Origin: a virus
Reading direction: 5' to 3' (one strand)
Length of the DNA stretch: 23,650 nucleotides
Virus record (IMG/VR): IMGVR_UViG_3300033144_009790
Span: 1 to 23,650 of that record
Shown here in pieces: positions 2,664-15,718 of the stretch. Numbering within the stretch: position 1 is the stretch's first letter; each line of letters begins with the position of its first letter. A model generated the notes under the pieces. It had not been told where the DNA came from, searched no databases, and worked only from the letters and a program-made list of their open reading frames with translations. The position numbers were made by a program, and so were the translations under genes.

Positions 2664-2672
2664 ACTCTCCTC

Positions 2673-2707
2673 AAAAACCCCGGCCCAGATTGGCCGGGGT
2701 TGTTTTT
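2673..2707. terminator. bidirectional intrinsic terminator
   Basis: A perfect 8-bp GC stem, CCCCGGCC (2678-2685) with GGCCGGGG (2692-2699), closes a 6-nt loop. It is flanked by AAAAA on one side and TTGTTTTT on the other, so it can stop transcription on either strand. On the minus strand it sits after the lysine-rich protein gene and immediately before the ribosome binding site of the next gene. That suggests partial read-through, or a promoter located after it. Confidence 0.85.
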
Positions 2708-2710
2708 GCC

Positions 2711-3247: not shown

Positions 3248-3446
3248 GCTTATTTTTCTCACGTTGGCACTCAATGAAAATGTCTTGTGCTTCTTGAATC
3301 TTTGCCCGGTAGAAGTCGTGATTGACGTCGCACATCGCTTGCGCTTCGTCATATTGGCCTGCTGCGGCAGTGATCTTTATGGCCATATGGCCATATGGCG
3401 GTAGGGATTGTCTCTTTTCCGTATCTGTAGCAATCGTTCTCATCAT
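3237..3446 (-). CDS. small hypothetical protein
   Basis: This 69-residue protein starts at the first of two tandem ATGs, right after GAGGAGAG. Upstream in-frame codons to 3572 run into the helicase gene and are not used. The C-terminal half is a charged helix (NHDFYRAKIQEAQDIFIECQ). No domain is recognised. The coding strand contains the 12-bp palindrome GGCCATATGGCC around 3380-3395. It overlaps the GTG start of the next gene by 11 bp. Confidence 0.65.
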   Translation of the reverse strand: MMRTIATDTEKRQSLPPYGHMAIKITAAAGQYDEAQAMCDVNHDFYRAKIQEAQDIFIECQREKNKRES

Positions 3447-3493
3447 CCTCTCCTCAGCTGACGGATGATTATATACCTCAGTGTGGCTATTTA

Positions 3494-4978
3494 CTATAGT
3501 TCGTAGCCGTGAACGGACGAAGCCATCACACAAAAAAGTCGTTTCCTCGCTCGCGTTACGGCCACATACCAATTCCTGTGTTCATTATCAGGGTCCAATA
3601 AAGCCGCGTCCAATATGTTCCCGGTCTGATCTAACAATACTACTACGTTGTCTGCTTCTCTGCCTTTGGCTTTGTGTATTGTGGACAGTTCGATCTTGGG
3701 GATGGCTGTTAGGTCTTTGTGTATGGCTAGGGCACGGTGATAATAATCCACATTATCCAACGATCCAATAGTCCGGGAGAATATGTTTATTGGATCGGCA
3801 TTAACGACGTCAACACCTGCTTCGGCGGCTGTGGTGGTGCCTTTAGTGGGTAGATGAACCAAGTCTATAACATTGTAATTCAAAGACGATTCCCAAATAG
3901 CCCTGCGCAAACTCTCCACGGAAACTGCTTCGCCACGTTGCAATTTGATGATGGTCATTATTTTTTGAGCGGTGCGTTTGTTTATGGACCAACCATTCTC
4001 GTCCACATATATCTCGCCAATGGACTTCAGCCACCAACGTACATCATCCAACATGAAATCAGATCGAGCCAGCACGAACCAAGTTTCATCGGTATATTTG
4101 CTGAATGGCACAAAGGCATAGTCCCCGTACATTTGGAACAGACCTGACGCCTCCCGAGGCTTCCATTCTTTCGGCTCCCTGTTTTCAATCCTGTGTAGGA
4201 TTATGCTGGCGACTGCGTGAACCTTCTTCGGGCACCGATAAGATTGCGTCAGCATAATCTTCTCGTCAGCAGGATAAGACAGCATTTTATCCACCCGGGA
4301 ACCCGACCAAGCATATATAGATTGATCATCATCACCCGCGACATATTGCCTAGCTGAATCAGCAAACGTGTTCTCGATAACCTCCCATTGCTGTCCGTTC
4401 AGGTCTTGGACTTCATCGATGATGCTGACTTTGATATCTGGCTTAATTGGGGTGGCTAGGTAATTGTCGATCATGTCCTGAAAGTCTACTTTCCCGGTCG
4501 CTGTCTTCCACTCCTCATAGGCGATGACGAACTCCTCCATAATGGAGAAGTCATGAGTCACCCAGTTAGTTGATTTCATCCACGCATCCTTAAGCGGAAT
4601 TTGCGCAGCCCGGGCGAGATTGTACGCTTCCAAAGCAATGTCGCCGCGCTCCTTTCTCCGGGGATTGCCGCTGAAGTCTATCACCCGGTGAATCTGCGCG
4701 AACACCTTAAGGTCATAAGGGGTCACAACCTGCTGCCCCGGGAGCCGGGAGAGCGTGAAGCAGAGGCTGTGGATAGTTCTAAACCACATCATGTCATTTT
4801 GCTTCAGTTTGAATTTCTTCGCGGTGCGCTGCTTGGCTTCGTTGACTGCTGCGTTGGTAAAGGAAACGAAGGCAATCTCATTGGGCAAGATTCCATTCTC
4901 CAACTCCTTCTCAATAATGTGAAGTAATTGGGTGGTCTTGCCTGTCCCGGGCGGGCCGAAGATGGCTGTGCGTTTCAT
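3494..4978 (-). CDS. UvrD/Rep/PcrA-type superfamily 1A DNA helicase
   Basis: This 494-residue protein carries the complete SF1A helicase motif set. Walker A is at residues 8-15 (GPPGTGKT), motif Ia FVSFTNAAVNEA follows, Walker B reads SIIDEVQDLNG, motif III GDDDQSIYAWSG, motif IV SYRCPKK, motif V STIHKAKGREADNVV, and motif VI YVAVTRARKRL near the C-terminus. Such enzymes unwind DNA 3' to 5' using ATP. It is shorter than cellular UvrD (about 700 residues), as is usual for phage versions with trimmed 1B/2B subdomains. It lies directly after the primase and a coiled-coil protein, with a 4-bp overlap to the latter, so a role in replication or recombination is likely. Confidence 0.93.
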   Translation of the reverse strand: MKRTAIFGPPGTGKTTQLLHIIEKELENGILPNEIAFVSFTNAAVNEAKQRTAKKFKLKQNDMMWFRTIHSLCFTLSRLPGQQVVTPYDLKVFAQIHRVIDFSGNPRRKERGDIALEAYNLARAAQIPLKDAWMKSTNWVTHDFSIMEEFVIAYEEWKTATGKVDFQDMIDNYLATPIKPDIKVSIIDEVQDLNGQQWEVIENTFADSARQYVAGDDDQSIYAWSGSRVDKMLSYPADEKIMLTQSYRCPKKVHAVASIILHRIENREPKEWKPREASGLFQMYGDYAFVPFSKYTDETWFVLARSDFMLDDVRWWLKSIGEIYVDENGWSINKRTAQKIMTIIKLQRGEAVSVESLRRAIWESSLNYNVIDLVHLPTKGTTTAAEAGVDVVNADPINIFSRTIGSLDNVDYYHRALAIHKDLTAIPKIELSTIHKAKGREADNVVVLLDQTGNILDAALLDPDNEHRNWYVAVTRARKRLFCVMASSVHGYEL

Positions 4979-5202
4979 TTATTGCTCCCTAATGCTGCGA
5001 GTGGTGCATATAACTCACCCACCATTCCAGTTCTGTACGAAATACGAGCAGCATCAGCAACAGCCTCAAGTTTCTCGATGCGGGCAGTCTTTTCAGCAAT
5101 TAGATTGTTTCTGTCCTGTACGACACCCGACAAGTCCTCTGTAATTTCTTGCAACCGCTCATTCTCATCGAGTAAGGATTGCATTCTTTCTGCTTCATTC
5201 AT
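4975..5202 (-). CDS. small coiled-coil protein
   Basis: This 75-residue protein has heptad-like spacing of hydrophobics and many Glu, Leu, Asn and Lys residues across residues 5-50 (MQSLLDENERLQEITEDLSG, then NNLIAEKTARIEKLE), predicting one long coiled coil. It sits between the primase and helicase genes, overlapping each by 4 bp, with GAGGAGAG before its ATG. The tight placement suggests a partner or spacer for one of those enzymes, but no function can be assigned from sequence. Confidence 0.75.
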   Translation of the reverse strand: MNEAERMQSLLDENERLQEITEDLSGVVQDRNNLIAEKTARIEKLEAVADAARISYRTGMVGELYAPLAALGSNK

Positions 5203-6680
5203 ATTGCGCTCTCCTCATGGACATCGTCCAGTTTATCCAAATCCTGTAAATACCAAAACCCTCTGCCGCCGCGCTTTTCTTCCCGGACCTTAACATCCTC
5301 AGCAATCAGCGCCTCAAACAACACCTCCGGCAATAGCTGCGGCATGCTCAATCGCCGCTTCAGCATCTTCACCAACTGATGCGGATAGACGTACACACCG
5401 CCCTTGTTATCGTGTAGAGGTAGACCGCTGATACATTGCCCCCAGCTCTCAGCAACGTTAGAACTGGACACAATATTGATTAGTTCGCTAACCAATTGCC
5501 CTCTGCGTCCGGAGTATTGTGGTGCTTCTACTTCTTGCGCCCCCACCGTCATCTCGCCCATAATTTCAGCAAATTGTCTCGCCTTCATCGCCGGGACCAT
5601 ATACCCAGTCTGCCTCATGACTGCTATCCGGAAGGCATGGACGCCTATTATGGCGTGTGCGTCTAGGTATACGCGCTTACCGTTTACGGTGACGATGTAG
5701 TAGACATCCTCAGTCATAAACCGGATGCCTCCCTCCAGTTTAAAATCGGCGGCTTCAAATCCATCGCCCCCAATCCCGTGCGGCCTGCCGAGGCATATTG
5801 ATTTCTGGCAGACAGTATTTATAGGGGAATCGGAGCATTTATAGAAGTATGTTTTCTTTTCCAAATTCCGAACAATCTGCGCCACTTCTCCGTTACTCAA
5901 CGGTGGGTCCATTAGCTCCGCGTTCAAATCATTAAGCTTATCCTGCCATTCATCAGGCCACCGCTTCCGGCAAAACACCCCCAAGTTGAAAAGAGATATG
6001 TTGCGAGAACCAGAAGGGAACCCATTACGGACCAAAGTGTTCAAGCAAGGAGGTCCGCCCTCCAATAGTTTTTGCTCCCCGGGGACAACAACAACTTCCA
6101 GTTCATCGTGCTTTACGGATTTGAGGATGGCTTCTTTAATGAAGCGAGTCATCGAGACTCGTTTGCCATTCACAATCCCATATCGTAAATCATCCTCATC
6201 ACCGCCGAAGTAAGGCATGTTGATCCAATTACCAACATCCTCCTTGGTCCGGATTGCGTCTTGCTTAGGGAATATCTCAACGCCAGAGTATCCAAGCTCA
6301 GCAGCCCACTCCGCCAGCTTCGGTCGAACCTTCTCCGCCAAAGCCCCCGGACCTTTGATGAACAAATAAAGATGAGCGCCGCCCGACTTAGAGCGGCACA
6401 CCATCAGGGGAAGGCCAAGTGCTTTTATTGCGGCTTCGAGTTCAGCATGATCAAGTGGATAAGTATCAATATCAATAGCAGCAAAACAGACTGTGTTATC
6501 ATCCCGTATAGGAATAATGCCGATGCTACGCTCACCAGAAAGATGCAGCCCCCAAATGTCTTCAGTAACCGCAGACTGCATTGTCCTGCCCTTGCCAGCC
6601 AGTTTTTCACCTTCTTTCTCTGTAACCTGATATGTGCCATATGCCCGATCAAGTCCCGCGAATAATTCCCAAATCTTCAT
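5199..6680 (-). CDS. archaeo-eukaryotic-type DNA primase (AEP superfamily)
   Basis: This 493-residue protein contains an AEP primase domain in its first half. The catalytic D-x-D is FAAIDIDTYPL (D70, D72) and the nucleotide-binding S-x-H-like motif is SKSGGAHLYLF (S97 to H103). The stretch EIFPKQD, followed by GNWINMPYFGG, is typical of the TOTE-type AEP group. The middle segment GSRNISLFNLGVFCRKRW resembles a PriCT primase C-terminal helical domain. It is followed by a cysteine cluster (C-x8-C-x4-C, then GRPHGIGG) that may bind zinc or an iron-sulfur cluster. Primases of this class make RNA or DNA primers and can also polymerise. It probably starts phage replication with the two helicases nearby. 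The start overlaps the HAD gene by 32 bp. Confidence 0.87.
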   Translation of the reverse strand: MKIWELFAGLDRAYGTYQVTEKEGEKLAGKGRTMQSAVTEDIWGLHLSGERSIGIIPIRDDNTVCFAAIDIDTYPLDHAELEAAIKALGLPLMVCRSKSGGAHLYLFIKGPGALAEKVRPKLAEWAAELGYSGVEIFPKQDAIRTKEDVGNWINMPYFGGDEDDLRYGIVNGKRVSMTRFIKEAILKSVKHDELEVVVVPGEQKLLEGGPPCLNTLVRNGFPSGSRNISLFNLGVFCRKRWPDEWQDKLNDLNAELMDPPLSNGEVAQIVRNLEKKTYFYKCSDSPINTVCQKSICLGRPHGIGGDGFEAADFKLEGGIRFMTEDVYYIVTVNGKRVYLDAHAIIGVHAFRIAVMRQTGYMVPAMKARQFAEIMGEMTVGAQEVEAPQYSGRRGQLVSELINIVSSSNVAESWGQCISGLPLHDNKGGVYVYPHQLVKMLKRRLSMPQLLPEVLFEALIAEDVKVREEKRGGRGFWYLQDLDKLDDVHEESAI

Positions 6681-7008
6681 GCCCGATATTCCCTGTGTTT
6701 CTTATTACGCGCACGCCCCGGTCATCCCAGAATTCACTTATCCGGGAATACTTATTTGCTGTTATTTGAAGCGGAGGCAGGCCCATGTCATGCAATGCCG
6801 TATCAATTGTCTGGCATTCTGTCATGACCTTGCTAGGCTCCCATTCGACCGATACCCGGGAAGTGAAGATCAAGACTTCACACCCATCCCGGAGCCATTG
6901 ATGAACTCTGGTGACCATGGAGGGAACCGGAGCGCCATAGACGCCCGGACCCTTGTACCCATGGTACTCAACCAAAGTGCCATCCCAATCGACAGCAATG
7001 GTTCTCAC
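6649..7008 (-). CDS. HAD-superfamily phosphatase
   Basis: This 119-residue protein starts with GTG overlapping the previous stop (GTGA). It has the minimal HAD fold motifs: motif I AVDWDGTL (nucleophile D7, acid D9), motif II LIFTSR, motif III lysine in TANKYS, and motif IV EFWDDRG. There is no sizeable cap domain, so it resembles the small phage HAD proteins related to polynucleotide 3'-phosphatases or nucleotidases. The substrate is unknown; a mononucleotide or DNA 3' end is the natural guess given its position between the primase and the putative ssDNA-binding protein. Confidence 0.85.
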   Translation of the reverse strand: MRTIAVDWDGTLVEYHGYKGPGVYGAPVPSMVTRVHQWLRDGCEVLIFTSRVSVEWEPSKVMTECQTIDTALHDMGLPPLQITANKYSRISEFWDDRGVRVIRNTGNIGHEDLGIIRGT

Positions 7009-7793
7009 AGCGCGTTACCAGACTCATTATCAATCGTAGCGCCGCCACCATCCTGCTGACCGCGATCATACGTCAAGAGATTGTGACGCTGGGCTTCGAT
7101 AATGGACGCTTGCATCACGCCAAGATCAGGCAACAACATCGTGTTATCAGTCTTATCGTAAGTCCACCCAAACCAGTTCCCTTTATCGTTCGACAACTTT
7201 TCGGTGCCGAGTGTCCATTGGAAAGATCGGATGTTGATATTGGAATATGACTGGCCTTCAATCTCCATCTTCATCGTCCGCAACGTCCGCAACCAGATCC
7301 GGGAAGTCTTAAGCTGCGAAGCGGACATTGATAGCGTAGCCGGCTCCCATTCATCTTCCTCGACCTCGATGGCGCATTGGTAGTTGGCGTGAAGCTTGAA
7401 CTCATTACCATTCGGCAATATGTTCTGGTTTTCCACCTTCTCGCAACTGGCCAAGATTTCCTTCGCCATTGGGTCCAGCGCATTGACCTCCTGCACAAAG
7501 CCACCGCCCTTCTCACGGGGAATCCATTCGATGTACGACTCAACATAATCCAAAACGACTATGTTGATTTCTTCGTAAGCATCCTGAGTCGAGGTCAGCA
7601 GAATCATTCCCGCTTTCGCGCCCTTGATGTAGGCACTCTCGTCCTTGTCTACTTCTGGGGACATCTTCTGGAGTATCCTGATGAACGGCATAGCATAGCT
7701 ATTGCTCGTCGTGTTATCAAAACCATCACCCTTCAACAGTTGCTCAAGTGTCAACCGTTCCTGATCAGACATTTTCTTCTTTCTAGCTGCCAT
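7005..7793 (-). CDS. conserved phage protein, candidate ssDNA-binding protein
   Basis: This 262-residue protein has a basic start (MAARKKK), then segments I associate with a widespread phage family found among replication genes: MPFIRILQKMSPEV, YIKGAKAGMILLTST, a V-L-D-Y strand followed by IEWIPREKGGGFVQ, and a beta-rich middle with many aromatic residues (WIRTLRT-like and FQWTLGTEKL segments). The C-terminus is polar, glycine-rich and mildly acidic, as in many SSBs. In related phages such genes sit with primase and helicase and are often proposed as ssDNA-binding proteins. The function here rests on that context. The ribosome binding site AAGGAG is well placed. Confidence 0.55.
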   Translation of the reverse strand: MAARKKKMSDQERLTLEQLLKGDGFDNTTSNSYAMPFIRILQKMSPEVDKDESAYIKGAKAGMILLTSTQDAYEEINIVVLDYVESYIEWIPREKGGGFVQEVNALDPMAKEILASCEKVENQNILPNGNEFKLHANYQCAIEVEEDEWEPATLSMSASQLKTSRIWLRTLRTMKMEIEGQSYSNINIRSFQWTLGTEKLSNDKGNWFGWTYDKTDNTMLLPDLGVMQASIIEAQRHNLLTYDRGQQDGGGATIDNESGNAL

Positions 7794-7805
7794 TTTCTTT
7801 CTCCT

Positions 7806-8363
7806 TTATTTGACTGTAGTTAATTTAACAACATGGACTTTAAAGTATTGCTGCGGCAGGCTGTGGCCGTGATCTAGCTCCTCCCGTGCCCAGGCCTTAA
7901 GCGTACCGGGGTGGACTGATACTGTCTCGTTGGGGCTTGCTCCTACGTCTAGCAGGGCCTGAAACGCTTCGTCGGCCATATCCCTTTCGCCCCGGGCGAA
8001 CTTAGCAGTCAAGCCAATCTTAATCAGATCGCCATGCCCGTTCGTGTCCATCCACTTATAAGCATCAGGCTTCATCAGCGCCGGGATAGCAATTTGAACG
8101 CTGTCCTTGACTGCCACTTTCTTACCGTCGCTCAACGTAATAGACTCAAAGCCCAGATTGCTCATCAATGAAGGAATCTCATCCTGATTGATGGACCGCT
8201 CCAGTCGCTTCGCCTCCTTCAGCTTAATTTCCATATCAACGATCAGCTGCTGTTGGTCCAGAAGCCTATTGACTGCTGCTCCTAAAGTCCCCATTTGTTC
8301 ATTGGTGAACTTCTTGTCTGCTGGATCTGTCGTTGTTAACTCGTCCAATATTGTTCTACTCAT
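7806..8363 (-). CDS. conserved phage protein of the replication module
   Basis: The product has 185 residues from the ATG at 8363; GTG at 8366 is also in frame. The N-terminal half is helical and partly coiled coil (LLDQQQLIVDMEIKLKEAKR). It continues with INQDEIPSLMSNLGFESITL, a glycine-lysine hairpin and WMDTNGHGDLIKIGLT, and ends with VHPGTLKAWAREEL and LPQQYFKVHV. I recognise this arrangement from many tailed phages, where it lies beside the putative ssDNA-binding protein, but I cannot name a function. The ribosome binding site GGAGGAGG lies in the end of the upstream membrane-protein gene, and the two genes overlap by 8 bp. Confidence 0.7.
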   Translation of the reverse strand: MSRTILDELTTTDPADKKFTNEQMGTLGAAVNRLLDQQQLIVDMEIKLKEAKRLERSINQDEIPSLMSNLGFESITLSDGKKVAVKDSVQIAIPALMKPDAYKWMDTNGHGDLIKIGLTAKFARGERDMADEAFQALLDVGASPNETVSVHPGTLKAWAREELDHGHSLPQQYFKVHVVKLTTVK

Positions 8364-8511
8364 CACATCCTCCTCCGTACATATTACTTACGCATTGTTG
8401 CGTCGTTCCTTCCTGAGACCATTCATAAGCCCAGACAAACACATAGACTGTAAATGTCGTCATCGCCAATAAATAAAGTCCCACTAAAGCAATTACAAAA
8501 TATCTTTTCAT
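8356..8511 (-). CDS. 51-residue single-pass membrane protein
   Basis: This short frame begins with ATG at 8511-8509, overlapping the helicase stop as ATGA, and ends with TAG at 8358-8356, 8 bp inside the next gene. Residues 4-28 form one unbroken hydrophobic stretch rich in Val, Leu, Phe, Tyr and Thr, a clear transmembrane helix after a KR dipeptide. The remaining 23 residues are polar, with Cys40 and Cys49 and a GGG turn. The fit at both ends supports a real gene. No family is recognised. An inner-membrane peptide made with the replication proteins could act on the host envelope or anchor a complex; that is inference. Confidence 0.72.
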   Translation of the reverse strand: MKRYFVIALVGLYLLAMTTFTVYVFVWAYEWSQEGTTQQCVSNMYGGGCDE

Positions 8512-10001
8512 TCTATTAAACTCCTCACGTCAGTCAACATCGCGGCCATATCCTTCTTCTCGATCAGAGACTGCTTCAGTTTCATGTCCACATCAATTTT
8601 CGCGGCTGGAACCGGGCACCACAAGTCGATTATATTAACGTGCTTGGTTTGACCGATACGATGAGCTCTATCTTCGGACTGCTCTCTGTGCTCGTGGCTG
8701 AAAGTATTACTGAAATATATCTCGTTTTCAGCAGCAGTGAGGGTATATCCATACCCAGCGCACGACTGAGTACAGACAAGAAAATCCTTTTGTCCTGATT
8801 GGAAATCTCTTCTGTTATCTTCTCGGTCATCCTTCTTCACCCTTCCAGTGATCTCGCCAATTTTATCGGCGGATGTTATTGCGCGGAGCAGCCGGATAAT
8901 GGCTAAGTGCTCTGCTTTAAACCGGGCCCAGATGATCGTTGGCCCGGGGAATTGTTCGATTGTTTCAGCTAAAAGATCGATTTTGGGATTGCTACCGGGG
9001 ATGGGTGTTGCCTCCTCGTCGTCATCCGAGGGCAGGAACCCTCCTACAACCTGCTGTAGCCTGAGTAATTTGGTGAGGGCAATCTCGGTAGTAATGAACC
9101 GATCTTCCTCAATCTCTGCCACGATGTTCTTAGCAATGTCCTTATATAAACGCAAACCGTCTGGGGTGAGCTTGGTTGTGCGCTCGTGGTATATCTTATC
9201 GGGGAGGTCTAGGCAATCTGCTTTCTTGACGAAGAAGGCGAATGACATCAGCTTCTTCTTCAGTTCCTCGATATTCTTCGCCCCGGTAATCTGAATTATC
9301 TTCCGGGTCTTGGTCCATTCCTTCGTTCTTTTGTCAAACTGCGGCTTGGCTATGCGGATGACTTTAGTTTCTAGTACGCAATAGCGTGCCCTGAAACTGT
9401 AGTAATTGGTGAAGCCCAAAGGCTCACGCATCAGGAACCTGAGCTGGCTATAGTAGTCAGCGGCTGTAACTGCGGGTGTGCCGGTTAGGATTGTCTTGGC
9501 TGTTGAATGATCGGCTATGCCGTGGGCGGCTATTGATTGTTTGGCGCTGACTGTTTTAATCCGGCTCGACTCATCGCATATTGTGTGGGTCTTATATCGG
9601 CGGATGAACCAGTGGGCTAGTTTATTTGCTTTTGGGGTGCGGATGCCCTCGATGTTCATTATGAGGAATGTCAGTTGTTTTGGGTTCTCGTTATAGAGGA
9701 CAGTCTCTAATTGCTTTACGGTCGCTTTGTTTAGAGAGGCATCCCACAATGCCACAATCGGCGCGACTCTGTCAGGACAGTGGGTGACTATCTCCTCGAT
9801 CCATGTGGCGGTGAGGGACTTGGGGCAGAGGATCAATGCGCTCTGAATCTTGCCCCGCTCAAAATTATATACAGTCCGGTCTATTGCTACTTTTGTCTTG
9901 CCGGTGCCCTGCTCCATAAACAAAGCAGCATAGGCCAGATGGGCTGTGTGATTGAATGCGTCACGCTGATGCGCGTAGGGTTCTGTCTTACCGATGTACA
10001 C
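8508..10001 (-). CDS. SNF2-type superfamily 2 DNA helicase/translocase
   Basis: This 497-residue protein starts at GTG with GAGGAGATAAC in front. It carries the SNF2/SF2 motifs: the Q-motif-like PYAHQRDAF (8-16), Walker A EQGTGKT (30-36), a Ia-type segment LILCPKSLTATWIEE, motif II HTICDESSRIK, motif III ILTGTPA, and in the C-terminal lobe motif V-like CTQSCAGYGYTL and motif VI SEDRAHRIGQ. The last is diagnostic of SNF2 enzymes. These proteins move along duplex DNA with ATP, remodelling forks, removing bound proteins or helping strand exchange. Phage copies of this size usually lie with replication genes, as here. It is the first gene of its transcript after the spacer at 10002-10354. Confidence 0.92.
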   Translation of the reverse strand: MYIGKTEPYAHQRDAFNHTAHLAYAALFMEQGTGKTKVAIDRTVYNFERGKIQSALILCPKSLTATWIEEIVTHCPDRVAPIVALWDASLNKATVKQLETVLYNENPKQLTFLIMNIEGIRTPKANKLAHWFIRRYKTHTICDESSRIKTVSAKQSIAAHGIADHSTAKTILTGTPAVTAADYYSQLRFLMREPLGFTNYYSFRARYCVLETKVIRIAKPQFDKRTKEWTKTRKIIQITGAKNIEELKKKLMSFAFFVKKADCLDLPDKIYHERTTKLTPDGLRLYKDIAKNIVAEIEEDRFITTEIALTKLLRLQQVVGGFLPSDDDEEATPIPGSNPKIDLLAETIEQFPGPTIIWARFKAEHLAIIRLLRAITSADKIGEITGRVKKDDREDNRRDFQSGQKDFLVCTQSCAGYGYTLTAAENEIYFSNTFSHEHREQSEDRAHRIGQTKHVNIIDLWCPVPAAKIDVDMKLKQSLIEKKDMAAMLTDVRSLIE

Positions 10002-10205
10002 GTTATCTCCTCAGAATCTCCTCAACTGAAAATCTGCTCTGGGCGGCCACCGACACGGAAGGTCGTATTGGTCTTACACCCAGGCAGACCCGCAACTCTG
10101 AGGAGAGTGTGCAGCCTTGATTATGCCCGAGGCTCGAAAGCCGGTCTACTATCCTCCGAAATCTGGACTAAAGAAAGTATTTTTTTTGGGTATATTAACT
10201 GGGCG

Positions 10206-10243
10206 AAAAACGGTCGCTGTGATTAAAAACGGTCGCTGTGATT
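10206..10243. repeat. tandem 19-bp direct repeat (two copies)
   Basis: Two identical adjacent copies of AAAAACGGTCGCTGTGATT occupy 10206-10224 and 10225-10243. The unit is not a multiple of three, which argues against a coding repeat. Its position upstream of the minus-strand replication operon fits a protein-binding site (operator or iteron), but no binding protein is identified. Confidence 0.9.
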
Positions 10244-10270
10244 TCGCTATAGTAATCAGGAGGTTACGCC

Positions 10271-10312
10271 ATGAATGGTGAATTTCAGGCGAAAAAAGAC
10301 CCAGACGCGTGA
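10271..10312 (+). other. plus-strand 13-codon mini-ORF with strong ribosome binding site
   Basis: ATG at 10271 is preceded by AGGAGG at seven bases and the frame stops at TGA after 13 codons. The stop lies inside the terminator-like hairpin at 10292-10332. The arrangement resembles a leader peptide or a decoy, and it lies opposite to the surrounding minus-strand genes. It may be chance. Confidence 0.3.
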
Positions 10313-10332
10313 GCGCCCGGGCCAGTCTTTTC
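10292..10332 (-). terminator. terminator-like imperfect hairpin
   Basis: On the minus strand AGAC...GTCT arms, with inner CCC/GGG and CGC/GCG pairings around a short loop, precede a run of six T residues; the plus strand also ends in TTTT. It lies 22 bp after the stop of the 100-residue gene at 10355, so it probably ends the small-gene transcript before the replication operon. Confidence 0.6.
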
Positions 10333-10354
10333 TCTCTCATCTAGCCATTGCTGA

Positions 10355-10657
10355 CTAGCCTAGCATTTTCATCAAGCCTATCATTTCATCCCAAGCATCC
10401 CACTCATCTTTGGTGACCAGCCAATGCTTGTTGTCTTCAAGAATCTGAACTGATTCTTTCTGACATTGCTCTTGCATCTTATCACACCACTCATCCCGGG
10501 AATCATCCTTGATCTTCTCCATCTCATCATCAGTCATAAAGTTGCCTTCCGAAAACTTCTGGAGAAACGCCTTGGCTGCTTCGATGAAGCGGCAACGATC
10601 AGGCTCATTCTGGAGAATGGAGCTCAGCTCATCCATGCTGAAGTTACGATAGTTCAT
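10355..10657 (-). CDS. small acidic hypothetical protein
   Basis: This 100-residue protein is rich in Asp, Glu, Lys and Trp and predicted helical (residues about 18-35 CRFIEAAKAFLQKFSEGNF; later DEWDAWDEMIGLMKML). No family is recognised. GAGG lies about eight bases before the ATG, and the start overlaps the upstream zinc-ribbon gene by 4 bp. It is the last gene of its cassette, followed by a terminator. Confidence 0.75.
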   Translation of the reverse strand: MNYRNFSMDELSSILQNEPDRCRFIEAAKAFLQKFSEGNFMTDDEMEKIKDDSRDEWCDKMQEQCQKESVQILEDNKHWLVTKDEWDAWDEMIGLMKMLG

Positions 10658-10938
10658 AACCCATCCTCAGCGGCTGCCTTCAACTCATCCAATCCATGAT
10701 CCTCATCATGAAGCTTCTCGCATTGAACGAACCAAACGTGAGACGTTGTGTCCCAATAAGGTCTTGCTACAGGATCATCCAGCCAATGTGGTATCAGCTT
10801 AGAATCTTCCAAAGCTTCGCGAGTCCCGCATTCAGAACAAATAGCAGTCTTATTATCGCGGCGGCTTAGAGCATTGAGCAGTTTATTGTGCTTCAACAGG
10901 TTCCACTTACACCGTGGACAAGTGGTACGATTAGCCAT
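10654..10938 (-). CDS. zinc-ribbon protein
   Basis: From the ATG at 10938, after AAGGAG, the product has 94 residues; the longer open frame to 11010 overlaps the previous gene deeply and is rejected. Two CxxC knuckles, C7-P-R-C10 and C34-S-E-C37, enclose a segment ending in NALSRRDNKTAI, and the following GTREALEDS is the pattern of a common small phage zinc-ribbon protein. It probably binds one zinc ion. The exact role is unknown; family members are encoded among early genes. It overlaps its upstream neighbour by 8 bp. Confidence 0.78.
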   Translation of the reverse strand: MANRTTCPRCKWNLLKHNKLLNALSRRDNKTAICSECGTREALEDSKLIPHWLDDPVARPYWDTTSHVWFVQCEKLHDEDHGLDELKAAAEDGL

Positions 10939-11116
10939 TCGCAAATCTCCTTTCGCCGCGTTCAATATACAATTCAATGGCGGCTGGAGAATAGCAGACA
11001 ACGAACTCACTTGCTTTCGGGAGCGTGTCCATCTGCTTTTGCGCTTGCTCGGATGTCTCGCATGTTGCTACGATTTTCCGAGAACGACGGTGCTTAACGT
11101 AATATTCCACTTTCAT
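10931..11116 (-). CDS. small basic hypothetical protein
   Basis: This 61-residue protein starts at the ATG following the leader GAGGAGAGAAAA. The in-frame extension upstream merely translates the leader. The first part is basic (KVEYYVKHRRSRKIVATCET) and the middle is helical (SEQAQKQMDTLPK), followed by a short beta-type stretch (EFVVCYS). The layout resembles small phage proteins of the beta-alpha-beta type, but no function is known. It heads a cassette of three overlapping genes. Confidence 0.75.
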   Translation of the reverse strand: MKVEYYVKHRRSRKIVATCETSEQAQKQMDTLPKASEFVVCYSPAAIELYIERGERRFANG

Positions 11117-11178
11117 TTTTCTCTCCTCATACGGCACGGAATGTACCAGCCAATACCCTCCTCCGAAGGTATTGGAGT
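11117..11178 (-). promoter_or_regulatory. structured leader unit A (two hairpins + RBS)
   Basis: In minus-strand order: distal hairpin CCAATACC/GGTATTGG (arms at 11168-11175 and 11150-11157), proximal 5-bp hairpin GGTAC-ATTCC-GTGCC (11143-11147 and 11133-11137, one U-G pair), then GAGGAGAGAAAA and the ATG at 11116. It is the leftmost of eight related units. Confidence 0.85.
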
Positions 11179-11184
11179 TACATT

Positions 11185-11403
11185 CTATGAATGGATATAT
11201 CCGTCAGGCTCGATGCCCAACCACATACCACACCATGGAACCATTATACACCTACAACCAGGCTGGACGGTGCGCCTAAACTGACGATATGATAATTTTC
11301 GGCGGATGCCGTAATATCCATCAAGCATCATCGGTTTAGCGTCAATCGGCTGACGATCATAGACCTTCTTCAGCGCCACTCGTTGTGCTCTAGTGAGATT
11401 CAT
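11185..11403 (-). CDS. small conserved phage protein
   Basis: From the ATG at 11403 (GAGG six bases upstream) this gives 72 residues. It begins with LTRAQRVALKKVYDR, a positively charged helix, and ends with the distinctive CIMVPWCGMWLGIEPDGYIHS. I associate that last segment with a small hypothetical protein found in many phages of diverse hosts, without known function. It overlaps the previous gene by 14 bp. Leader unit A begins a few bases after its stop codon. Confidence 0.75.
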   Translation of the reverse strand: MNLTRAQRVALKKVYDRQPIDAKPMMLDGYYGIRRKLSYRQFRRTVQPGCRCIMVPWCGMWLGIEPDGYIHS

Positions 11404-11794
11404 AGCGCGCCTCACTAACAGAGTGTGGGTGTCCATCTTCATAAGCCTCCAGAAGCAGATCCCGGCCATCACGCTCCGGCACTTTCTCCGGATAGTCCAA
11501 CCAGCAACCTCCCGGGCCCTCTGCCCAATCGTAGATGTCGTTTACTACGCGAGTGAACGCATAGTAGTTAGCCGGGATGAGCCGGGAGCCTGTGCTCACA
11601 GCGTGGTCGCAATCCATAAACCTATCGCAGAGCCTCACCTTGCCATCCACTTCATACTTGCGGATCTGCTCGATGACGCAAAGCTTCTCGGTATATGAAC
11701 AACCTTGGCTTGTGGTATGATGCTTTCGCCACACCCTCCAGAGGTTGTACCAGTCTGAGCGCTTCAAGCCTCTGCCCAATTCTAGCGGCGTCAT
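11390..11794 (-). CDS. hypothetical protein
   Basis: The 134-residue product starts at the ATG that overlaps the upstream stop (ATGA); an in-frame GTG at 11803 is an alternative. Trp, Tyr, Arg and Cys are frequent (SDWYNLWRVWRKHH; CSYTEKLCVIEQI; NDIYDWAEGPGGCW). Several cysteines and histidines could bind metal but do not form an obvious CxxC pair. No family is recognised. Translation is probably coupled to the zinc-finger gene before it. Confidence 0.7.
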   Translation of the reverse strand: MTPLELGRGLKRSDWYNLWRVWRKHHTTSQGCSYTEKLCVIEQIRKYEVDGKVRLCDRFMDCDHAVSTGSRLIPANYYAFTRVVNDIYDWAEGPGGCWLDYPEKVPERDGRDLLLEAYEDGHPHSVSEARYESH

Positions 11795-12081
11795 ATCGGC
11801 CACCGCACATCGTGGGCGGATTGATAAGCCTCATAGTCACCATCTTCCAGTGCAGCCAATCGTCGATCATCGGCGGCTTGCTCCAGTTTCTCTGCGTTTT
11901 CCCCGGGAACTGTTTCTTCAATTGTTCCCTGGCCACCGCAGTTGTTACAAACCACGTCATACGCACCATCCATATACTCCTCCATGAACTCTGGATCTTC
12001 GCGCATCTCAGCGCTAAGACCATTTCCGTCGATGGCTGGATTGACGTGACTGCCTTTTCCTTTACATACAGGACATTCCAT
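11791..12081 (-). CDS. DnaJ-like zinc-finger protein
   Basis: This 96-residue protein starts after a leader unit. It has two CxxCxGxG-type knuckles, C3-P-V-C6-K-G-K-G10 and C45-N-N-C48-G-G-Q-G52, as in the zinc-binding domain of DnaJ. They are separated by HVNPAIDGNGLSAEMRED and FMEEYMDGAYDVV, a spacer common to a phage family seen especially in actinobacteriophages but also elsewhere. It lacks a J domain, so it is not a co-chaperone by itself. It probably binds one zinc ion; the role is unknown. The next gene overlaps its stop. Confidence 0.85.
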   Translation of the reverse strand: MECPVCKGKGSHVNPAIDGNGLSAEMREDPEFMEEYMDGAYDVVCNNCGGQGTIEETVPGENAEKLEQAADDRRLAALEDGDYEAYQSAHDVRWPI

Positions 12082-12141
12082 TTTTCTCTCCTCATAGGGG
12101 ACAATCCCCCAGCCAATGCCCTCGTGAGAAGACATTGGAGT
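12082..12141 (-). promoter_or_regulatory. structured leader unit B
   Basis: Distal hairpin CCAATG/CATTGG (12133-12138 with 12113-12118), proximal hairpin GGGG/CCCC around GATTGT (12106-12109 with 12097-12100), then TATGAGGAGAGAAAA before the ATG at 12081. Relative to unit A the sixth base pair of the distal stem changes from A-T to G-C, a compensatory change. Confidence 0.85.
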
Positions 12142-12146
12142 GAGAC

Positions 12147-12398
12147 TCATAAAACGGATATTTGACGTTCATCCATCTGCGCCTTCAGATCATCCACATA
12201 GTACTCAAGCATTTTGTAGATGTCTTCGCGCTTAACATTGCGGGCGTATCCCAGTTTGCGCTTCACGTGGGCGGTGACGCTGCCCCGGGAATTCTTCAAA
12301 CCCTTCATTTCCAGATGGATAGAGTGCTTCCATTGGAGTAGCTGGAACCAAGGGACCGTGACCAGTTCTTCTTTCGCGTTATAGATCTGGACGTTCAT
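12147..12398 (-). CDS. small basic hypothetical protein
   Basis: This 83-residue protein has GGAGGT ahead of its ATG, which overlaps the preceding stop. It begins with a beta-like segment (NVQIYNAKEELVTVPWFQLL), has a basic centre (GSVTAHVKRKLGYARNVKRE), and ends with the helix DIYKMLEYYVDDLKAQMDE. The basic middle could contact nucleic acid. No family is recognised. Leader unit B begins within six bases of its stop. Confidence 0.72.
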   Translation of the reverse strand: MNVQIYNAKEELVTVPWFQLLQWKHSIHLEMKGLKNSRGSVTAHVKRKLGYARNVKREDIYKMLEYYVDDLKAQMDERQISVL

Positions 12399-12598
12399 GA
12401 TACCTCCATGATAACGCCATTCACTAGCAACGCGCTGGCGTACCAGCGATGCGGCTTTGGATAGTGCGGTCCTTCAAGCGTAATGCGGCCATTGTCGGGG
12501 CAAGGGAATGGGCCGGGTGAGTGACACCTGACCAAATCACCGTCAGCAACTGCTCTTTTGAGATCAGCTTTGGACTTAAAGTTTATATTGGTATACAT
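12395..12598 (-). CDS. small hypothetical protein
   Basis: This 67-residue protein starts directly after leader unit C. It begins with KSKADLKRAVADGDLVRC and continues CHSPGPFPCPDNGRITLEGP, then PHRWYASALLVNGVIMEV, a compact beta-rich fold. The pattern occurs in other phage small proteins, but no function is known. It is coupled by a 4-bp overlap to the gene that follows. Confidence 0.72.
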   Translation of the reverse strand: MYTNINFKSKADLKRAVADGDLVRCHSPGPFPCPDNGRITLEGPHYPKPHRWYASALLVNGVIMEVS

Positions 12599-12660
12599 TT
12601 TTCTCTCCTCATCGATGGGAAATCCATCAAAGTGCGCCCTTTATAAAGACGCACTAGTTG
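12599..12660 (-). promoter_or_regulatory. structured leader unit C
   Basis: Distal hairpin AGTGCG/CGCACT (12650-12655 with 12631-12636), with an inner CTTT/AAAG stem; proximal hairpin GATGG-ATTTC-CCATC (12624-12628 with 12614-12618); then GATGAGGAGAGAAAA before the ATG at 12598. Both stems differ in sequence from units A and B but pair perfectly. Confidence 0.85.
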
Positions 12661-12663
12661 GAC

Positions 12664-12903
12664 TTAGCCCCATTCTGGCAGCTTTGCCGTTTCAGCGATT
12701 GTGATGCGTCGGAAACGATACAGGAATGCCCCGCCACAACTATCGCACTTGAGCTCAGCACTAGACTTCAGGTCAACCCGCTTATCACCCTCTATCCGGT
12801 AATAATCAGTGCCGTTGGCTGCTGGAAACATCCGGTGATGGATCTCGCAATCCATTACCTCGACCCACTTACAATGCGGGCAGGTTGTCGATACCGTAGT
12901 CAT
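12664..12903 (-). CDS. zinc-ribbon protein
   Basis: This 79-residue protein has two CxxC knuckles, C8-P-H-C11 and C53-D-S-C56, about 40 residues apart, with a further C19 and H22/H23 between them. It ends FLYRFRRITIAETAKLPEWG. It probably binds one zinc ion and may contact nucleic acid or protein. It overlaps the previous stop by 4 bp and has no leader unit of its own, so it depends on the upstream cistron. Confidence 0.78.
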   Translation of the reverse strand: MTTVSTTCPHCKWVEVMDCEIHHRMFPAANGTDYYRIEGDKRVDLKSSAELKCDSCGGAFLYRFRRITIAETAKLPEWG

Positions 12904-13199
12904 ACCGACTGACCATCGCGAGTGGAAACCATCTTACCCAAACCAGGCCACCAGGTCCGAAGCTGATGTGCTCCGGCTGATCGCTTGAAGTCTGATGCTT
13001 TCCGAAGGTCCAGATGGACCATTGGCGTCTTACCGAACCAATCCAACATCTTGTCGATGAATCGGCGGATTGGATTTCGGCGGATGGGTGCACGACCTCG
13101 GTGCTGCTGACGTCGCTCTGCCCGGTCTGCCTTCTGCCTGTTATCATCAAGGCGGATTGCCCTTCTGTTGGCGACAGATCGCATATTGCTCTTAGCCAT
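12900..13199 (-). CDS. small Arg-rich basic protein
   Basis: This 99-residue protein begins MAKSNMRSVANRRAIRLDD and is strongly basic through residue 60 (QHRGRAPIRRNPIRRFIDKM), then has an aromatic end (HQLRTWWPGLGKM). Such composition suggests nucleic-acid binding, but no family is recognised. It starts after leader unit D and is followed, with a 4-bp overlap, by a zinc-ribbon gene. Confidence 0.72.
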   Translation of the reverse strand: MAKSNMRSVANRRAIRLDDNRQKADRAERRQQHRGRAPIRRNPIRRFIDKMLDWFGKTPMVHLDLRKASDFKRSAGAHQLRTWWPGLGKMVSTRDGQSV

Positions 13200-13259
13200 T
13201 TTTCTCTCCTCGGGAACGGAATGTTCCATATAGGATACTCCCTGAAGTGGGAATATCCT
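13200..13259 (-). promoter_or_regulatory. structured leader unit D
   Basis: Distal hairpin AGGATA/TATCCT plus CCC/GGG (13254-13259 with 13232-13237, starting inside the upstream stop codon); proximal hairpin GGAAC-ATTCC-GTTCC (13223-13227 with 13213-13217); then CGAGGAGAGAAAA before the ATG at 13199. Confidence 0.85.
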
Positions 13260-13554
13260 ATTGGACTACTGCTTGCTGAAGCCATTCTAACCACCCCAGC
13301 ATTGTGTCGCCGTTTTTGACTTCCCGGCGCCAGTCTCCTTGATTAAAGATTGGTACCATCTCCTTAATAGCGACGATGCGCCAGGCATACGCCAAATGTA
13401 CATACACCATTTCGACTTCTAAGCCAAAGCTGTGAACCTCATCAGCAACATTTCGTAGCTCCTCATAAGGCAATAGCGTTAACGTTGATAGCTTCCACTG
13501 CTCTTCTTTGACGGACTCATTATATTCGGCAAACGTAATTTTACGAATACCCAT
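13258..13554 (-). CDS. hypothetical protein
   Basis: This 98-residue product starts at the ATG after leader unit E; an upstream in-frame extension only translates the leader. It is helical and aromatic (FAEYNESVKEEQWKLSTLTL; YEELRNVADEVHSFGLEVEM; AYAWRIVAIKEM; MLGWLEWLQQAVV). No domain is recognised. It is a single-gene cassette bounded by leader units on both sides. Confidence 0.72.
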   Translation of the reverse strand: MGIRKITFAEYNESVKEEQWKLSTLTLLPYEELRNVADEVHSFGLEVEMVYVHLAYAWRIVAIKEMVPIFNQGDWRREVKNGDTMLGWLEWLQQAVVQ

Positions 13555-13614
13555 TTTCCTCTCCTCATAGGGGCGAATTCCCCAGCCAATACCCTCGTGA
13601 GAAGATATTGGAGT
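13555..13614 (-). promoter_or_regulatory. structured leader unit E
   Basis: Distal hairpin CCAATA/TATTGG (13606-13611 with 13586-13591) with TCTTCTCACGAGGG inside; proximal hairpin GGGG/CCCC around AATTCG (13580-13583 with 13570-13573); then TATGAGGAGAGGAAA before the ATG at 13554. The distal part is nearly identical to that of unit G. Confidence 0.85.
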
Positions 13615-13618
13615 GGAA

Positions 13619-14050
13619 CTATTGAGCTGTTCTGTAATGACCGGCATCGCCTCGTGGGTCGGTAGATTCGATCCAACGCACCGGGTATCCCAAAAAGTCT
13701 ACACGATATGGATGGACGTTGTAGAATTTACCGCCGATCTCAAACCAGTCGTTAGCCAATCCGCGATTACCTTTCGGTTTGCTGCCTAGATCGGTGTAAT
13801 GCCGGAAAGGCTTCATCTTAGTTCGGACGATGCCGAGGTAATAACCTTCAACTGCTTCTGAAACATAGACCGCATCCCACAGGCCCTCTGCCTCCAATTT
13901 CTCGGCGGCTGCGACTACTGACTTACGCAACGGCAGCAGGATGACGTCCCACTCGCTGTACGGAATGGTAGATTCAGCCAGTACATGAGTAAGCTCATTG
14001 ATGTGGCTTTTCCACACCTCGATGTAGTGCGCTTTTGATTTAGCGTTCAT
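13619..14050 (-). CDS. hypothetical protein
   Basis: This 143-residue protein begins MNAKSKAHYIEVWKSHINEL. Its N-terminal half is helical (LLPLRKSVVAAAEKLEAEGL) and its C-terminal half beta-rich and aromatic (VEGYYLGIVRTKMKPFRHY; DWFEIGGKFYNVHPYRVDFL). I do not recognise the family. It begins directly after leader unit F and ends next to unit E. Confidence 0.75.
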   Translation of the reverse strand: MNAKSKAHYIEVWKSHINELTHVLAESTIPYSEWDVILLPLRKSVVAAAEKLEAEGLWDAVYVSEAVEGYYLGIVRTKMKPFRHYTDLGSKPKGNRGLANDWFEIGGKFYNVHPYRVDFLGYPVRWIESTDPRGDAGHYRTAQ

Positions 14051-14117
14051 TTTTCTCTCCTCGGATCAGAATGATCCATAGCAAACCCTCCGGGTTTGAC
14101 GCCGGAAGGCGTGCTTG
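14051..14117 (-). promoter_or_regulatory. structured leader unit F
   Basis: Here the distal part is two perfect hairpins, ACGCC-TTCC-GGCGT (arms 14108-14112 and 14099-14103) and CAAACCC-GGA-GGGTTTG (14092-14098 and 14082-14088). The proximal hairpin is GGATC-ATTCT-GATCC (14073-14077 with 14063-14067), followed by CGAGGAGAGAAAA and the ATG at 14050. Confidence 0.85.
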
Positions 14118-14119
14118 GA

Positions 14120-14758
14120 TTACTCTATTAGCTCAAACCGGATATTGCCTTTCCAGTGATAAACCGTCGCGCTGCCGTGTCGCTTAACGATGAGCCGCAC
14201 TCGTTGGTGGCCGCGTAAGCTCCAGCCATTGGCTTTATAGGCTGCTGCGATAGATGAATAATCGCCAATCAGATTGTCGTCGATGAATACCTTGACGCCA
14301 TTCCTCTTCATTGGCGGACGTTTCAGCGCTTTCCGCTCCGGAACTGGAACAGACTTGCCTACGGGCAGAAGCTCGCTGCTTGGATAGACCAAATCAGCCC
14401 ACATGATGCGGTGCTGCCTACCGGCGGACCAATCGACGATTTCCGTACCATCCCAAGCCAGTACGTGTTTGGCTACGCGGATGATGACTTTACAACCGCC
14501 CCACTTGGCCGCTAGTTCCCGCTCGATGGTGCGCACTGTCTTAGACTCGACAGCAATTCGGCGGATGGTAAAGCCCATTTCGCGGATGACTTGGTAGTAA
14601 TCTGCGTCGCTGAATCCCTTATTGCGGATTCGACCAGCGGCTGTACATTTGGCGGATGCCTCGATGTACGATGTTCCAGTCACCGCAGCGGTCGTGACGA
14701 CCGAGCAGTCATTGGTATCATCTACGCATTTCGGTTTGATATTCGTAAATGCCTTCAT
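14120..14758 (-). CDS. papain/C39-like cysteine peptidase-type protein
   Basis: This 212-residue protein starts after leader unit G. Residues 14-110 look like a papain-fold domain: Cys18 in TNDCSVVTTAAVTGTSY at the start of a helix, a glycine-rich GRIRNKGF segment, His98 in IIRVAKHVLAWDG, and Asp109 in EIVDW. The Cys-His-Asp order and spacing fit a C39/NlpC-like catalytic triad, and the motif is known from phage proteins of unknown target. The C-terminal half is basic and beta-rich (residues about 145-212), ending ATVYHWKGNIRFELIE, and may bind DNA. It may be a protease or a non-catalytic relative; a role in host takeover is inferred only from its place among small early genes. Confidence 0.65.
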   Translation of the reverse strand: MKAFTNIKPKCVDDTNDCSVVTTAAVTGTSYIEASAKCTAAGRIRNKGFSDADYYQVIREMGFTIRRIAVESKTVRTIERELAAKWGGCKVIIRVAKHVLAWDGTEIVDWSAGRQHRIMWADLVYPSSELLPVGKSVPVPERKALKRPPMKRNGVKVFIDDNLIGDYSSIAAAYKANGWSLRGHQRVRLIVKRHGSATVYHWKGNIRFELIE

Positions 14759-14817
14759 TTTTCTCTCCTCAGGGGAAAACTCCCCAGCCAATACCCTCGT
14801 GGAGAAGATATTGGAGT
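14759..14817 (-). promoter_or_regulatory. structured leader unit G
   Basis: Distal hairpin CCAATA/TATTGG (14809-14814 with 14788-14793); proximal hairpin GGGGA-GTTT-TCCCC (14781-14785 with 14772-14776); then TGAGGAGAGAAAA before the ATG at 14758. Confidence 0.85.
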
Positions 14818-14822
14818 GGAAT

Positions 14823-15041
14823 TTAGCGGCGGCGATAGTAGATATTGCCGTTGCGGATGATGCGCGTTTCTTCTGGGTAGACTCTGCCCAGCGCGAAAAA
14901 CGCAAGTGGGGCCAGCGTGAAGAATGCTACCGGAAGGATGCCTCCCAGATTCAACGGATTATCAGTCATCATCACCGTGTGTGAAAGGTCGAAACAAACT
15001 GCGGTGATAACGGCCAAAGCGAACCCATATATGAACTTCAT
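14823..15041 (-). CDS. two-pass membrane protein
   Basis: This 72-residue protein has a hydrophobic helix at residues 3-17 (FIYGFALAVITAVCF) and a second at 33-52 (GGILPVAFFTLAPLAFFALG), with a short polar loop between and a basic tail ending YYRRR. The basic tail predicts a cytoplasmic C-terminus. No family is recognised. It follows leader unit H. It could act on the host inner membrane, for example in exclusion or regulation, but this is inference. Confidence 0.72.
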   Translation of the reverse strand: MKFIYGFALAVITAVCFDLSHTVMMTDNPLNLGGILPVAFFTLAPLAFFALGRVYPEETRIIRNGNIYYRRR

Positions 15042-15104
15042 TTTTCTCTCCTCAGTCGATGGGGAATCCATCAGATTGGCCCCTCAGAGAAGGGCCAAAA
15101 GTTG
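15042..15104 (-). promoter_or_regulatory. structured leader unit H
   Basis: Distal hairpin TTGGCCC/GGGCCAA (15092-15098 with 15076-15082); proximal hairpin GATGG-ATTCC-CCATC (15068-15072 with 15058-15062); then GACTGAGGAGAGAAAA before the ATG at 15041. It is the rightmost of the eight clear units. Confidence 0.85.
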
Positions 15105-15108
15105 GACT

Positions 15109-15444
15109 CTACACAAAGGTGCAGATGGTGCCGAGCGTGCCGTCATCCGAAGGTTTGCCGACAAGCTTCTGGACGATTCCACGAGCCTGACCGCGTGACT
15201 TAACTGACTTCAAAGCCTCGATGCTGTCGAGGAATTTGCCGACAGGCATTGTCTTTTTCGGTGCGGCCAGCAGGATCTGATAAGCCAGTTGTCGCGGAAA
15301 GCCCTTGTAGAAGTGGGACTCATTTCCGGCAAATGCCTTGATCTTGCGTGACTCGTCAACCGTGACTTTCTTGGTGACTTTCTTGGCCGCTTTTGTCTTG
15401 GCGGATACGGTTTTGGTCGATACATTTTTGGTGGTCTTGGCCAT
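15109..15444 (-). CDS. lysine-rich DNA-binding-type protein (paralogue of 2711-3247 product)
   Basis: This 111-residue protein begins with a Lys/Thr/Ala/Val tail (TKTVSAKTKAAKKVTKKVTV), followed by a domain of about 70 residues with HFYKGFPRQLAYQILL, KKTMPVGKFLDSIEAL and VKSRGQARGIVQKL. The last three segments closely match those of the protein at 2711-3247, so the two are paralogues with shared C-terminal domains and separately evolved tails. The tail resembles histone H1-like or bacterial Hc1-like sequences. DNA binding is inferred. It is the first gene of the leftward block, with GAGGAGAG eight bases before its ATG. Confidence 0.8.
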   Translation of the reverse strand: MAKTTKNVSTKTVSAKTKAAKKVTKKVTVDESRKIKAFAGNESHFYKGFPRQLAYQILLAAPKKTMPVGKFLDSIEALKSVKSRGQARGIVQKLVGKPSDDGTLGTICTFV

Positions 15445-15490
15445 GATTTTCTCTCCTCAGAGACGTACAGGTTATGGGCGAAAGTTGCCC
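15445..15490 (-). promoter_or_regulatory. possible ninth leader (divergent)
   Basis: The GAGGAGAG ribosome binding site is present, preceded by a hairpin GGGC/GCCC (15487-15490 with 15476-15479). The hairpin lies further from the ribosome binding site, has a 7-nt loop and a weaker stem than in the eight clear units. It may be a relative of them or chance. Confidence 0.35.
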
Positions 15491-15718
15491 TGATGACCCG
15501 CTCAGAATTCGAACGGGCCACCAGCGATCTCTCGCAAAGGAGAGAGAAAAATTTTCCGAAGGAGCCGTTGTAACAGGCCCGGAGAGAGTAGGAAACGCTC
15601 GGTAGCAAACTTTCCGTGTTCGCCCTGACCCCGGTGAACCCTTTCGAATCCGGGCCGGGTAGCGCCCCTAAAAGGGCCGCGCGCTCTCTCTCTTTTCTTC
15701 GTACTTCTGGAGGAAAAA

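Follow-up and report, generated by a model that had tools for sequence, protein, structure and literature searches.

Phage T7 is the classic case of an operon cut by RNase III, and the 5′-monophosphate ends left by the cuts invite 5′-end-dependent decay. The GenBank record of phage T3 annotates ten RNase III recognition sites; folded here, most of them show a lower stem, an internal loop and an upper stem of 9–11 base pairs (bp), most end about 19–40 nucleotides (nt) before the next start, and R0.5, R4.7, R6.5 and R18.5 overlap the upstream stop codon. The window analysed here, the whole 23,650-nt stretch of a 23.65 kb IMG/VR virus record (IMGVR_UViG_3300033144_009790), carries eight structured leader units at junctions within a block of small genes, and the plan of these units resembles that of the T7 and T3 sites.

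Two further described systems are close in position or in logic. Cluster K mycobacteriophages carry start-associated sequences (SAS) and extended SAS (ESAS), repeated elements that precede a subset of start codons and in some cases contain inverted repeats. A sequence-only reading of the window had likened the units to these elements, and the position at gene starts is the part of the likeness that holds. The 13-bp SAS GGGATAGGAGCCC has no match in the window with up to two mismatches. The ESAS are 17-bp repeats with a shared consensus, and their inverted repeats are said not to support RNA pairing (PMC3203893), whereas the window units are free in sequence and keep a pairing that covaries; the relation is best regarded as an analogy only. 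In RiboJ-type synthetic insulators, the RNA is cut upstream of the ribosome binding site (RBS), after which a hairpin exposes the RBS and stabilises the mRNA (PMC6993053). RiboJ is man-made and cut by a ribozyme, whereas the phage module is natural and presumably cut by a protein. A search of Rfam 15 at the gathering score gave no match, and no tRNA was found.

Eight intercistronic units with a three-segment architecture

Eight GAGGAGAG(A/G)AAAATG sites are present in the window, all on the (-) strand, with the 5′ G at 15053, 14770, 14062, 13566, 13211, 12610, 12093 and 11128. The 58–69 nt between the upstream stop codon and each site are filled by one unit. All non-overlapping gene junctions in the block have a unit, and ATGA or overlapping junctions have none. 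Each unit contains a distal stem (D) of 7–13 bp and a proximal stem of 4–7 bp that ends 0–3 nt before the Shine–Dalgarno sequence (SD). The 68-nt leaders are more stably folded than dinucleotide shuffles, with a mean z of −2.95 as against −0.14 for 17 other gene starts of the window (Mann–Whitney p = 6e-6).

All eight leaders that the sequence-only reading had described, each with a distal and a proximal hairpin, were thus recovered, but that reading had missed a third element. Folding places a helix around the distal stem, in which segment A, at the stop codon, pairs with segment B. This second segment comprises the loop and 5′ arm of the proximal hairpin, where its partner is segment C, just before the SD. 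Because both helices use segment B, A:B and B:C exclude each other, and the leader is built of three mutually exclusive segments. Attenuators and riboswitches likewise contain mutually exclusive helices; they differ from the module, which has no terminator U-tract, does not mask the SD and has a segment A that starts at an intergenic stop codon.

The stop codon overlaps A by 1–2 nt in seven of the eight units. The exception is the unit at 13211, whose stop comes shortly after A and forms part of the base of the distal stem; its A:B helix is short, at 4 bp. This placement, found also in other phages, where the stop abuts or lies in A in most units, raises the possibility that a terminating ribosome on A breaks A:B and lets B:C form, changing initiation at the next gene and so coupling or tuning the translation of neighbours without cleavage. 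The energies of the two folds, which are close and usually within about 5 kcal/mol, would suit such a switch. Neither fold covers the SD or the start codon, however, and the stop within A does not discriminate, since T3 RNase III sites overlap stop codons likewise. Nor does a ribosome-driven switch predict T7-like upper stems, and it is considered unlikely.

Covariation of the competing helices

Since the sequences are too divergent for an automatic alignment to be trusted, swap (permutation) tests, a hand-written descriptor and pair counts on ungapped 15-mers were used in place of a covariance model. Across 21 units from three phages (the window and its relatives L129 and L130), matched A:B segments had a mean energy of −6.9 kcal/mol versus −4.2 kcal/mol when swapped, and matched B:C segments −8.7 versus −2.9 kcal/mol; 0 of 20,000 permutations was as good in either test. 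When swaps were confined to one phage, the permutations as good among 20,000 numbered 7 (A:B) and 1 (B:C) in the window, 14 and 13 in L129, and 28 and 28 in L130; an unrelated phage, L319, gave 0 and 137 alone. The A:B test is the cleanest because the bases before D were assigned to A mechanically (L129_3227 was set by hand), while proximal hairpins were found via best pairing. Four sister units with near-identical distal stems form the A:B helices AAAUUCC/GGAGUUU, AGUUCC/GGAAUU, AGUCUC/GGGAUU and GAAUGUA/UACAUUC.

When pairs were counted on 18 distinct proximal hairpins of the same length, 100% of cells were paired versus 50.8% after shuffling, 5/5 pairs had changed on both sides, and B:C covariation was 1.303 versus 0.257 in shuffles and at most 0.242 when slid, although these 15-mers were pre-selected for a hairpin of that size and the values are less independent than the swap tests. 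The covariation on which the sequence-only reading had staked its claim is strong by both approaches. That reading was also right that the leaders are structured and sit at starts, that the architecture is kept while the sequences differ, and that the units are not recent copies.

The covariation bears on two readings in which A:B has no role as an RNA helix. The units might be passive translation insulators or stability hairpins that keep neighbours off the SD or stop 3′ exonucleases, and the unpaired SD and A-rich spacer in the predicted products, together with the strong structure of the leaders, would suit this; A:B covaries like B:C, as an incidental pairing would not, and this role appears quite improbable. 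Inverted repeats that recur at gene junctions could also act in DNA, as operators, recombination joints or hairpin promoters, and the cluster K ESAS repeats were read in this way. G-U pairs make up 24/160 of the A:B pairs and 38/242 of those in D, a frequency that fits RNA but not DNA operators. The single orientation relative to the genes, the three-way complementarity and the fixed place between stop and SD also speak against elements of DNA, as do sigma-70-like matches that occur at shuffle level and in none of the leaders, which led to the rejection of promoters. DNA-level elements are very improbable, and the recombination joint that the sequence-only reading had listed among the candidate roles is not supported.

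The proximal loop tends to AUUC/AUUU in the window group, and the hairpin adjoins the SD. Both features would suit a binding site at the proximal loop for an RNA-binding protein, from the phage or its host, through which the whole set is repressed or activated, in the manner of T4 RegA or the RNA-phage coat protein operators. Against this, the loop varies in sequence and size (3–7 nt; GCUC, CUGA and GCC in L319), pairing with GAGU in A accounts for the UUC bias, and the need for A and D is left unexplained. Such a protein site is regarded as improbable.

Other candidates were tried and rejected. Intrinsic terminators do not apply, as the units have no U-tract and no terminator-like (-) site occurs within the eight units. 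A leader peptide or N-terminal extension is at odds with in-frame stops 5–22 codons upstream in about half of the units and a frame that is not kept, although EERKM is in frame in some. GAGGAGAGAAAAATG alone is a common phage RBS, present in >120 viral stretches, most of which lack the module, and anti-SD pairing by the distal loop CUUCUC is available in some units only.

Recurrence in related and unrelated phages

Terminase searches identified the close relatives L129, L130, L131, L132 and L133 at 70–80% identity; by terminase and leader-gene searches, only L129 and L130 extend into the region of interest. Comparison of the contig with the DNA of named phages found no near relative, and bacterial genomes scanned with the terminase yielded no relative. 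The motif occurs 10 times in the whole L129 contig and seven times in that of L130, confined to the matching small-gene block. At orthologous genes in the window, L129 and L130, the leaders are unrelated in sequence and the plan is kept; before the gene at 15041, for instance, the proximal hairpins are GATGGATTCCCCATC (window), AAGCGAAATTCCTTCGCTT (L129) and TAGTGGGTTTTCCACTA (L130). Two L129 leaders (5293–5340 and 6504–6530, (-)) have an extra long AT-rich hairpin (GGTACTAAATAATTTAGTACC and GGTAAGAAATAATTTCTTACC) immediately upstream of the SD.

A descriptor derived from the units, requiring at least 6 A:B pairs at a stop codon, a D of at least 7 pairs, an overlapping B:C, an SD and a start, matched 17 times in the three related phages (66 kb), 29 times in other viral loci (3.44 Mb) and 14 times in shuffled DNA. 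Following up the outliers of the first scan led to arrays or pairs of units: 12 in L319 (IMGVR_UViG_3300027903_000007, a 57.7 kb contig), about three in L320 and two in L321; their densities are not independent evidence, as these contigs were chosen for having matches. L329 (3300012096_000007), found via the L319 sequence, has about 11 units. These four further contigs represent about three unrelated lineages with differing sequences. Among the genes of L319 are those for an ATPase and a VWA-like protein with relatives in N4-like phages, and L320 has a DUF4055 portal. The A:B helix of L319 is as long as 10–11 bp and takes in the stop codon (UGAGCAUUUCU with AGAAGCGCUCA).

The module is present in about four unrelated settings, and the expectation of the sequence-only reading that it would recur in related phages beyond a GAGGAG RBS is exceeded by its presence in unrelated ones. 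With 11–12 modules each, L319 and L329 would be a good place for an in-depth covariation study, and the descriptor could be used to find processing sites in uncultured phages. The modules of L319 and L329 also share a conserved internal loop, GUCC/GUG, and CAGGAGGAG.

Resemblance to T7 and T3 RNase III sites

A:B together with D follows the T7/T3 plan of lower stem, internal loop or bulge, and upper stem in nearly all units. The units and the T7/T3 sites are both intercistronic and on the gene strand, in an operon that is early in T7 and T3 and probably early here. The distances to the next start are also similar, at about 29–35 nt from the end of D to the ATG in the window and about 20–35 nt from the site in T7 and T3. 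The descriptor, written without T7 or T3 in mind, gave two matches in 260 kb of six classic phages, one of which is the annotated T3 R1. One L321/L117 unit contains the exact T7 R1.1 upper stem, GGTCATTC-N4-GAGTGGCC, found otherwise only in T7 among the loci compared. The upper-stem sequence GGUC...GUGGCC is partial in L130_5119 and absent from most units. A pyrimidine occupies the 5′ arm in 77% of the loop-proximal pairs, as in T7 and T3.

T7 R1.1 is cut at nt 5887, which has been linked to T7 mRNA maturation and protection (PMC8708148). The module phages are of other types than T7 and T3, the sequences of their upper stems mostly differ, and cutting by RNase III is here a prediction. A further difference concerns the products: those of T7 and T3 have no comparable 5′ hairpin, T3 R1 excepted, whereas the product of the module can form B:C. 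Like nt 5887, four other T7 cut positions fall about 3 nt beyond the upper stem. B:C begins 0–4 nt past D in 17/21 units and at +3 in most L319 units. If the T7-like spacing is applied here, most units would be cut where the proximal hairpin begins or within 1–2 bases of that point, and most L319 units exactly there.

A proposed cut-and-cap mechanism

Processing fits best among the roles listed in the sequence-only reading, because the A:B form matches the T7/T3 RNase III sites. The preferred interpretation, to which a probability of roughly 0.6 is assigned, is that the units are RNase III processing sites of the T7/T3 type with an added step of self-capping through B:C. In the full-length transcript, A would pair with B below D, so that a structure of roughly 17–22 bp, interrupted by a small internal loop or a bulge, begins at the upstream stop. 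The predicted RNase III cut lies between D and B, on or close to the 3′ side of this loop. It would leave D as a protective 3′ hairpin on the upstream message, and in the downstream message, freed of A, B would refold with C. The resulting hairpin would lie at or within about 1–2 nt of the new 5′-monophosphate end and 0–6 nt before an open SD, and would shield the end from 5′-end-dependent decay while leaving the start free. Products cut near the D/B boundary have a predicted 5′-terminal hairpin of −5 to −11 kcal/mol and an open SD in nearly all units.

RNase E is stimulated by 5′-monophosphate ends, and an mRNA can be stabilised by a hairpin that lies at its 5′ end or close to it (PMC3997798), so a self-capping product would make sense. 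A single cut that leaves a folded 3′ end has also been described as stabilising for processed RNA (PMC6993053). The module would combine a T7-type RNase III site with a hairpin that stabilises the 5′ end, a logic close to that of the synthetic RiboJ insulator. To the problem posed by cut ends, the sequence suggests a testable answer, in that the strand freed by the cut has a partner ready to cap the new end.

Several points weigh against this interpretation. RNase III cutting is a prediction, and the T7 consensus sequence is missing from most upper stems. The capping step is without proven precedent, since T7/T3 products other than that of T3 R1 have no such hairpin. Four sister units have CTGG after D, and a T7-like cut at +3 would take one base of their proximal stem. 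L129_6504, L129_7568, L129_5293 and L130_7205 depart from the A-D-B-C plan or have extra hairpins. The stop codon within A would also fit a ribosome-driven switch.

The helices A:B, D and B:C with their covariation and mutual exclusivity, the place at the stop codon, the recurrence and the likeness to T7/T3 sites are what the sequences establish; the cutting by RNase III, its exact site, the refolding and the stabilisation or insulation of each mRNA are inferred. The broader proposal is given an even chance: the units would represent a recurrent and undescribed intercistronic module of phages in which B is used twice, with A at the upstream stop as a nuclease site and then with C as a cap. This would be a natural cut-and-cap insulator that depends on pairing and not on sequence and makes separately stable messages in several unrelated lineages. 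A pairing-based design that recurs in unrelated phages and resembles RiboJ might be of use in operon engineering as a compact natural part.

Positions of the units and genomic setting

The eight units are numbered from right to left, and all are on the (-) strand. Unit 1 (15042–15111) has its stop TAG at 15109–15111, A (GAGTCCA) at 15103–15109, D at 15076–15098, the B:C hairpin at 15057–15073, the SD GAGGAG at 15048–15053 and the ATG at 15041. The sequence-only reading had the units end at 15104; the start of the module within the upstream stop codon takes unit 1 to 15111. Unit 2 (14759–14825) has stop TAA at 14823–14825, A (AAATTCC) at 14818–14824, D at 14788–14814, the proximal hairpin at 14772–14785, SD at 14765–14770 and ATG at 14758. 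In unit 3 (14051–14122), stop TAA (14120–14122) and A (AATCCA, 14116–14121) are followed by an additional small hairpin before D (CAAACCCGGAGGGTTTG, 14082–14098), and then by the proximal hairpin (14063–14077), SD (14057–14062) and ATG (14050). Unit 4 (13555–13621) comprises stop TAG at 13619–13621, A (AGTTCC) at 13615–13620, D at 13586–13611, the proximal hairpin at 13570–13583, SD at 13561–13566 and ATG at 13554.

Unit 5 (13200–13265) is the exceptional one: A (TCCA, 13262–13265) lies just upstream of the stop, within the last codons of the upstream gene, and the stop TAG (13258–13260) is in the base of D (13230–13261); the proximal hairpin (13213–13227), SD (13206–13211) and ATG (13199) follow. 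Unit 6 (12599–12666) has stop TAA at 12664–12666, A (AAGTCCA) at 12659–12665, D at 12631–12655, the proximal hairpin at 12612–12630, SD at 12605–12610 and ATG at 12598. For unit 7 (12082–12149), the corresponding positions are 12147–12149 (stop TGA), 12142–12147 (A, AGTCTC), 12113–12138 (D), 12095–12111 (proximal hairpin), 12088–12093 (SD) and 12081 (ATG). Unit 8 (11117–11187) contains stop TAG at 11185–11187, A (GAATGTA) at 11179–11185, D at 11150–11175, the proximal hairpin at 11132–11148, SD at 11123–11128 and ATG at 11116.

The small leftward genes start at about 15.4 kb and form a block (10355–15444, (-)) that is split by the modules; genes within one unit of the block are joined via overlapping stop and start codons. 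From about 17 kb onward, the terminase and structural genes point rightward, and to the left of the block lie genes for an SNF2-type helicase, an AEP primase-type protein, a UvrD-type helicase and a Pam3 gp34-like protein. Gene order and direction suggest that the small-gene block is an early operon. After its last gene, an intrinsic-terminator-like hairpin of 11 pairs followed by TTTTTT (10298–10323, (-)) closes the block, as TE closes the early region of T7. The genes to the left of this hairpin have ordinary starts without modules.

Upstream of the first operon gene (ATG 15444) lies a strong hairpin without the A-D-B-C module. This hairpin (15465–15525, (-)) has 13–14 bp, GGUGGCCCG...CGGGUCAUC, and its arms resemble the T7 RNase III upper stem with the arms exchanged; by analogy, it may be the counterpart of T7 R0.3 before the first early gene. 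In the divergent region beyond it, the plus strand contains an RBS-like AAAGGAGAGAGAAAAATTTTCC at 15536–15560, and a plus-strand start close to the corresponding position in L130 has AAGGAGAGAGAAAAAATG. At 2672–2700 (-), a terminator-like ACCCCGGCC-loop-GGCCGGGGTTTTT is followed directly by GAGGAGAGTATGATG at a possible gene start.

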